A stretch of 64,000 nucleotides of DNA from Natrinema longum (GTDB taxonomy: Archaea; Halobacteriota; Halobacteria; Halobacteriales; Natrialbaceae), in assembly GCF_017352095.1 (NCBI RefSeq), contig NZ_CP071463.1, forward strand, positions 1,364,001 to 1,428,000, in the 5' to 3' direction. The notes beneath the pieces were generated by a model. That model had not been told where the DNA came from. It ran no database searches and saw only the letters and a list, made by a program, of their open reading frames with translations. A program made the translations under genes and the position numbers. This document shows, one piece after another, positions 6,622 through 7,890 of this stretch. Within the stretch, counting starts at the first letter, position 1. Every line of letters starts with the position of its first letter.

Positions 6622-7803
6622 TCACTCGACACCGTCGGTAACGATCGTCGCGACGCGTCGCCGGTCGAACAGTCGTTCGTCGGTCGGTATCGCCGGATAC
6701 GGCTCGCCGGGTTCGGAGCCGGGCCACTCGCCGAACTGCTCGGGATAGAGCTGTTTGGCCGTCATCTCGAGCTGGAACAGGTTCATGAGCGGTCCCTGGT
6801 ATCGCATCCCACTGGCGAAGACCCGGTCGTTCCGGACCGCAGTCAGCTCGCTCCCGGCCGCATCGGCTGCCAGCCGGGCTCGGATGTCCCCGATGGCATA
6901 CCGCGAGGTGATGCCCCAGAGGTGGAGGATGACGTCCGGATCGGCCTCGAGCATGGTCTCGTAGCTGATCTCGCCCCAGTCGCCCGACCACGCTACGTCG
7001 GCGAGTGCGTCGCGAGCCCCAAGCGGTCGCGTCTCCGCCTGCCAGAAGCCGGGCGTGTTGAGGTGGTAGGCGTAGAAAACGCCGTTGTCGGCGTCCAGCG
7101 TGACCCGCGCAACCGTCGGTCGCTCGCGTTCGGGCGGGAGGGCCGACTCGATCTGCGATCGGGTTTCGTCGTAGACCTCGGCGAGCGCCTCGTACCGGTC
7201 CCGTTCCCGGAAGACGGCCGCCACGTTCTCGAACAGTTCCCAGAGCGTGTAGTACTCGTAACTGTCGGCGTAGGTCTCGGCCGGGTCGCTGTGAACGCCG
7301 CTGTGATAGCTGCCGACCCACGGGCCGACCGTGTCGGCGATCTCCTCGATGTCGGATTCGTCCCACTCGGGCTGGGTCGTCAACACGTACGACGGATCGA
7401 GGAAGTGGACGTCGCTCTCCGCGCTGTAGAGTTGCTCTTTCGTCACCCCGCCCTCGAGAGGGTTCTTCAGCCCCTCCCAATCGAAGGAGACGCCCTCGAG
7501 GCGCTCGTAGAACCCGTTCATCGTCGTCCCCGACATCTCCGGGGCGAACAGCGTCCGTACCGCATCGCCGTGGCCAAGCGCGACCGCCATGTCGGCGTAC
7601 TGTGTGAAGCTGACGAAGGCGTTCTCGGGGACGGCGTCGAACGGTATCTCGCCCATCGGTGCCATCGACACCGTATACGAGTCTCGCCCGCTCTCCGAGC
7701 CGGAGTCGCCGCCGAGACAGCCGGCCAGCGCCCCGCTCCCCGCCGCGATCCCCGTCGCCACGAACGCACGCCGACTTCGATCGAACTGCCGCGTCGTTTC
7801 CAT
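6622..7803 (-). CDS. Tat-exported siderophore/Fe(III) ABC substrate-binding lipoprotein
   Basis: This 393-residue protein begins with a twin-arginine signal (DRSRRAFVATGIAAG) and a lipobox (GALAGCLGG), so it should be anchored outside the membrane. The rest resembles class III periplasmic binding proteins used for Fe-siderophores or cobalamin: a short helix linker and motifs such as YADMAVALGHGDAVRTL and LEADPDVILHLWG. No permease or ATPase gene is adjacent, so it must work with a transporter encoded elsewhere. A DtxR-like palindrome lies 6 bp before the start codon, which supports an iron-related role. Ligand identity is inference. Confidence 0.82.
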   Translation of the reverse strand: METTRQFDRSRRAFVATGIAAGSGALAGCLGGDSGSESGRDSYTVSMAPMGEIPFDAVPENAFVSFTQYADMAVALGHGDAVRTLFAPEMSGTTMNGFYERLEGVSFDWEGLKNPLEGGVTKEQLYSAESDVHFLDPSYVLTTQPEWDESDIEEIADTVGPWVGSYHSGVHSDPAETYADSYEYYTLWELFENVAAVFRERDRYEALAEVYDETRSQIESALPPERERPTVARVTLDADNGVFYAYHLNTPGFWQAETRPLGARDALADVAWSGDWGEISYETMLEADPDVILHLWGITSRYAIGDIRARLAADAAGSELTAVRNDRVFASGMRYQGPLMNLFQLEMTAKQLYPEQFGEWPGSEPGEPYPAIPTDERLFDRRRVATIVTDGVE

Positions 7804-7808
7804 ATGTT

Positions 7809-7822
7809 TTAGGCCAACCTAA
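7809..7822 (-). promoter_or_regulatory. Iron-box-like operator TTAGGCCAACCTAA
   Basis: The 14-bp sequence TTAGGCCAACCTAA has perfect TTAGG/CCTAA arms around a 4-bp centre. It lies 6 bp upstream of the ATG of the siderophore-binding protein gene and overlaps its likely transcription start, just after an AT-rich TATA-like stretch (7820-7833). Its arms and spacing match the binding sites of DtxR/IdeR/SirR-family metal repressors, which haloarchaea use for iron control. A repressor bound here would block transcription when iron is plentiful. Confidence 0.7.
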
Positions 7823-7890
7823 TAATTGAAAAGGCGTTCGGTTAGCGGCGGACCAAAAGAACTGCTCGCGGTCGGTTCGGTCGTCGGCAG

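Follow-up and report, generated by a model that had tools for sequence, protein, structure and literature searches.

A 14-bp palindrome, TTAGGNNNNCCTAA, has been proposed as the IdeR/DtxR consensus, with one dimer bound (PMC8464063, in the sections available). The actinobacterial IdeR/DtxR half-site given in those sections has the same 14-bp consensus as the haloarchaeal box described here. The actinobacterial sites are however mostly 19-bp double sites, whereas here the second putative operator is a separate box situated 33–36 bp off, across the TATA region. For Haloferax volcanii, the available parts of PMC11349517 place the Leyn and Rodionov 2015 signal ('ferR regulon signal') ahead of every fhu operon, count 11 fhuD paralogs and two permeases, and give an increase of more than 4-fold in iron starvation for 5 of the 11 fhuD; HVO_A0557 is 7.0-fold up in iron starvation. 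The same parts name DtxR paralogs tied to iron homeostasis, Idr1/Idr2 in Halobacterium and Idr/SirR/TroR in Haloferax, and the genome studied here likewise carries several DtxR-family paralogs. A SirR-type repressor has been suggested for iron-uptake genes in Hfx. mediterranei (PMC11218638, available part).

The present case is in Natrinema. It shows the pattern of the haloarchaeal DtxR-family iron regulon, i.e. a box before fhuD and FecCD genes with many binding proteins and few permeases, and is likened to that regulon by the description of the signal in the available text of PMC11349517. As judged from sequence, the box is a well-supported further case of this already described haloarchaeal iron-regulon signal. 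The following features are found in the window, which is the whole stretch of 64,000 nucleotides analysed.

6622..7803, minus strand, Tat-signal lipoprotein gene, 393 aa, PF01497 (FhuD-like siderophore-binding), intact open reading frame
7809..7822, no strand assigned, DtxR/IdeR-type box TTAGGCCAACCTAA, coding strand TTAGGTTGGCCTAA, −19 to −6 from the ATG
7823..7833, minus strand, TATA-like element CTTTTCAATTA, −30 to −20, directly adjoining the box
7835..7841, minus strand, BRE-like CCGAACG, −38 to −32, shared by 14–19 of 19 orthologs per column
7844..7857, minus strand, putative decayed second operator, coding strand TTTGGTCCGCCGCT, 4 mismatches

The box at 7809–7822 is an exact match to the 14-bp consensus, and in a motif search TTAGGCCAACCTAA was the sole match in the window even with up to 3 mismatches. 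From base composition, 0.022 exact TTAGGNNNNCCTAA sites are expected per window and 1.26 per genome. The start codon occupies 7801–7803 on the minus strand. An initial annotation had placed the palindrome 6 bp before the ATG and over the presumed transcription start. The upstream location is correct but the actual gap is 5 bp, and the second statement is nearly right, in that the box occupies the interval separating the TATA-like element from the ATG, the transcript being presumably leaderless. The CCGAACG segment probably acts as the BRE.

The 393 aa protein matches PF01497, which comprises periplasmic binding proteins of the siderophore type, with an E-value = 1.6e-11 (44.5 bits, curated Pfam cut-off 27.5). 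Its N-terminal sequence, as read directly, displays twin arginines (RR) and an LAGC lipobox. The AlphaFold2 model has a mean pLDDT of 86, and its top Foldseek matches are siderophore/iron binding proteins, e.g. the ferric schizokinen binder YfiY and the staphyloferrin A binder HtsA. Many of the 50 Foldseek rows shown are siderophore/iron binders; one is a molybdate binder (3psa), several are unassigned, and none of the 50 carries a B12-binding protein title. In its Pfam match, Tat lipoprotein form and predicted fold the protein resembles FhuD/YfiY-type proteins (PF01497) that bind Fe-schizokinen, staphyloferrin A or other ligands, but it is only approximately 12–19% identical to the solved structures of this type and the permease genes are not adjacent. 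In NCBIfam the protein gave only a weak match to an F420-0 model, which was rejected, the score being 24.3 bits against a cut-off of 392.4. A Pfam scan of the eight neighbouring genes gave a histidine kinase, a lumazine-binding protein, a PrsW protease, DUF402, DUF7577, a SIMPL protein, a PLP enzyme and one gene with no match, and no transporter component among them; no FecCD permease is found in the 64-kb window. The initial description of an orphan gene with no transporter genes beside it therefore holds for permeases.

The 3.59 Mb genome, a single contig, was searched for the box with the reversed pattern as control, and 22 exact TTAGGNNNNCCTAA sites were found versus 1 for the control. When spacers of 0–14 were permitted there were 23 matches, 22 of them with a spacer of exactly 4; half-sites are thus rare by themselves, and their spacing is specific. 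That the palindrome arose by chance, a view for which only its shortness speaks, has a negligible probability given these counts, a Poisson P of about 6e-21 for at least 22 sites at a mean of 1.15, and the conservation of position in 19 of 19 orthologs detailed below.

The 22 sites group into 18 promoter regions. Transport or regulator genes (binding proteins, FecCD permeases, other ABC-transporter parts and a DtxR-family gene) are found at 10 of the 18, namely five PF01497 genes, two FecCD, one TOBE-type ABC ATPase, one SBP_bac_8 and one DtxR-family gene. The initial annotation had proposed a search for the same motif at other iron-uptake genes, and these sites provide it. The remaining boxes lie ahead of a cupredoxin lipoprotein, DUF7551/7552, a Gluconate_2-dh3 gene with a GMC oxidoreductase behind it, two genes of the glycosyltransferase type, a cupin, and two regions without assignment. 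Five promoters (336060, 1880799, 2620404, 2626963 and 2674650) have no obvious iron-uptake gene, which is a point against the iron assignment, and three more (1781305, 2618182 and 3206058) are ambiguous in this respect. Seen from the genes, five of the nine PF01497 genes have their own box, two closely follow a boxed gene of the same strand and two have no box; box-led units contain two of the three FecCD genes that score above cut-off, and the remaining one is close to one of the box-less binding proteins. The signal is thus present before both fhuD-type and fhu permease genes, as in the definition of the haloarchaeal fhu (FetR/'ferR') regulon in the available part of PMC11349517. The end of the box is 5–6 nt before the ATG in 9 of the 18 promoters, often right behind a TATA-like element. 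At iron genes the box combines a core-promoter location with genomic recurrence at a fixed spacer.

Several box-led loci show features of their own. A box-led PF01497 gene (L030 4430-5537; genome near 2431542) has an apparent frameshift, with the Tat-signal start and the binding domain in different frames. A 63-aa open reading frame (L029 6022-6213) that lies behind a box pair and directly ahead of a FecCD permease looks like a remnant binding-protein signal region. A box-led 822-aa lipoprotein (L025 3080-5548) contains DUF5059 and a plastocyanin-type copper domain, and could be a copper protein expressed when iron is low.

Within the genus, 22 of 29 genomes had a match to the binding protein and 7 had none. 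A close ortholog is found in 19 of the 29; three other matched genomes, not counted among the 19, held only paralogs of about 50% identity. In all 19 orthologs the ten fixed box bases are at −19 to −6, the central tetranucleotide occurs in 15 variants, and the TATA-like element has T at −29, −28 and −27 and A at −23, again in 19 of 19. Of the PF01497 paralogs that are more distant within the genus, 11 were examined; the exact box precedes five and is absent from the stretch examined for the other six, some of which look internal to tandem arrays. Homologs outside the genus (17 sequences, five genomes) have the exact box ahead in 16 cases, with the start codon 3–5 nt behind the box in 15 of these. 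The sole box-less homolog closely follows a boxed one, with both on one strand.

A wider search covered 41 genomes (the genome studied here and 40 relatives) and gave 558 sites versus 52 control matches, the forward count exceeding the control in 39 of 41. In a phylum-wide sample, an excess of boxes is seen in 18 of 19 Halobacteriales genomes versus 19 of 101 others; the Halobacteriales exception, G134, has 4 boxes versus 9 control matches. Box enrichment is confined to Halobacteriales. The proposal of a wide archaeal box was dropped, as the 101 sampled non-Halobacteriales genomes give 150 forward versus 270 control matches.

The palindrome is very probably an operator for a DtxR-family metal-dependent repressor acting in iron control of the binding-protein gene. 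This reading is drawn from the fit to the consensus, the recurrence at iron-uptake-type genes, the conserved position, and the presence of three DtxR proteins in the genome, and the same evidence upholds the original proposal that the palindrome ties the orphan binding protein to iron control. The regulon signal and the induction of several such binding proteins in iron starvation, as reported for Haloferax volcanii (PMC11349517), point the same way. Against the reading stand the promoters with no obvious iron-uptake gene, the six box-less distant paralogs, the counts for G134 and the Hfx. lucentense homolog of HVO_A0466/A0467 described below. With ample intracellular Fe2+, a repressor dimer would occupy the stretch from TATA to the ATG and block RNA polymerase on this leaderless-type promoter. 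When iron drops, the repressor would leave and the siderophore-binding lipoprotein would be made along with the products of other box-bearing genes. The orphan protein would probably feed one of two box-controlled FecCD permease systems located elsewhere on the chromosome. Sequence, position, recurrence, conservation and gene families are direct observations; binding, iron as the effector, repression and the shared permease are inferred. An isolated binding-protein gene is in this way placed in an iron regulon from its promoter sequence alone, and in the shared-regulon picture several binding proteins could use few permeases.

A less expected aspect is that in most orthologs two putative operators appear to bracket the BRE/TATA. 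A second, weaker box, TT(T/C)GGNNNNCCTAA, is found in most orthologs at −53 to −55, beyond the BRE/TATA-like stretch and about 35 bp (33–36 bp) upstream of the proximal box; in this strain it is decayed. Close pairs of exact boxes are 34–36 bp apart in 11 of 16 instances among the sites listed, a count that takes in the 22 sites of the genome studied here and the listed sites of seven relatives (11 of 14 sites for G028) and leaves out single-site contigs. On Hfx. lucentense (90811/90845) and Hfx. mediterranei plasmids, box pairs with a distance of 34 bp are likewise found ahead of binding-protein genes, and box pairs or clusters on these plasmids lie before binding-protein genes that adjoin a gene of the HVO_A0556 family. 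From the neighbouring gene, these binding-protein genes are probably orthologs of HVO_A0557. At the Hfx. lucentense homolog of HVO_A0466/A0467, the most iron-induced operon of H. volcanii, 200 bp were examined and contained no box; this stretch may be intragenic. The paired boxes raise the testable question of how a bacterial-type repressor silences an archaeal promoter of the TATA/TBP type.

Three clear DtxR-family proteins (PF01325 matches) are encoded in the genome. Ligand positions follow the numbering of DtxR, read against the alignments. The first is a paralog of 226 aa; the other two are situated on the genome contig as follows.

2516157-2516588 (L037), plus strand, 144-aa DtxR paralog
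681992-682519 (L026), plus strand, 128-aa DtxR paralog behind a box-led open reading frame

The 226-aa paralog keeps His79, Glu83, His98, Glu105 and His106, has Asp at position 102, and occurs in 41 of 41 genomes. It is tentatively favoured as the protein that reads the box, as it keeps metal ligands. The residue at position 102, where IdeR has Cys102, together with a best NCBIfam match to the MntR model that is below cut-off, would suit a box read by a DtxR-family protein with manganese or a different metal, instead of iron, as its signal. This is improbable, since the genes next to the boxes encode siderophore-type binding proteins and FecCD permeases and the homologous Haloferax proteins rise in iron starvation (PMC11349517, available part). 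An activator, or a regulator with a dual role through the two-box layout, is more improbable still. The upstream boxes do lie outside the BRE/TATA, and at 2620404 the rightward gene has its TATA downstream of the sole exact box, but the constant box between TATA and ATG is in a repressing position.

The 144-aa paralog is a less probable reader of the box than the 226-aa paralog, but a credible one. Cys77, Cys121, Cys124 and Cys132 are kept without exception in an alignment of 81 sequences, made up of the protein itself and the best 80 of 280 relatives, while most of the ligands (His79, His98, position 102 and His106) are replaced. It is therefore possible, although doubtful, that the box is read by this paralog and that iron is sensed via the four cysteines, as an Fe-S cluster or a Cys-bound metal, and not via the classical site. 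No clear ortholog is found in only two of the 41 genomes, and these have 0 and 1 boxes, which would agree with such a role, but both genomes are only 78% complete and one has a size of 0.9 Mb. Judged by this paralog, the nearest named genomes belong to Natrinema species. The search peptides contained CPDCFDAE, which favours recovery of C121 and C124, and the 226-aa paralog, present in all 41 genomes, is an equally good candidate. A related clade in four genomes (G027, G032, G034 and G035) displays the classical ligands with Cys102 plus the cysteines; this complete set of ligands (His, Glu, His, Cys102, Glu, His) accompanied by the cysteines may represent the ancestral state. An extended version, in which two operators about 35 bp apart clamp the BRE/TATA and are read by a DtxR paralog whose classical metal site is lost and which senses iron via four invariant cysteines, perhaps holding an Fe-S cluster or a Cys-bound metal, is unlikely. 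The haloarchaeal DtxR literature, in the parts available, contained no description of the paired-box layout or of the cysteine DtxR paralog; Leyn and Rodionov 2015 may describe the layout. The cysteine-bearing paralog raises a testable question about iron sensing in haloarchaea.

The 128-aa paralog is without metal ligands and is unlikely to read the box. In 11 of 29 genus genomes a search at E 1e-20 gave no counterpart, and four of these 11, G002, G006, G013 and G022, keep the box before the binding-protein ortholog. The 128-aa paralog thus appears dispensable for the box. It has its own box ahead, by way of a 42-codon open reading frame whose stop overlaps the paralog start (ATGA). The box is at −19 to −6 (once −18) of this short open reading frame in 12 of 12 close orthologs. 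These are 12 of 18 loci; five of the others are more distant with no box ahead of the gene and one is on an incomplete contig. The start and the ATGA overlap of the 42–43-codon open reading frame are also kept in 12 of 12, but the candidate of a conserved regulatory peptide was dropped. In the eight 43-codon open reading frames the codon positions vary alike (287/367/304 differences), and codons with a single change are 110 synonymous versus 299 non-synonymous, near the +1 frame. Thus the peptide appears unconstrained.

Two further sites are situated near genes of other types. In the genome studied here, a box is found 435 bp downstream of a DpsA-type ferritin-like gene (L034 2489-3559; NCBIfam DpsA). 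On a Haloferax lucentense plasmid, an exact box is found about 45 bp ahead of a NifU-family gene (L242 7738; NZ_CP104743.1 257738).
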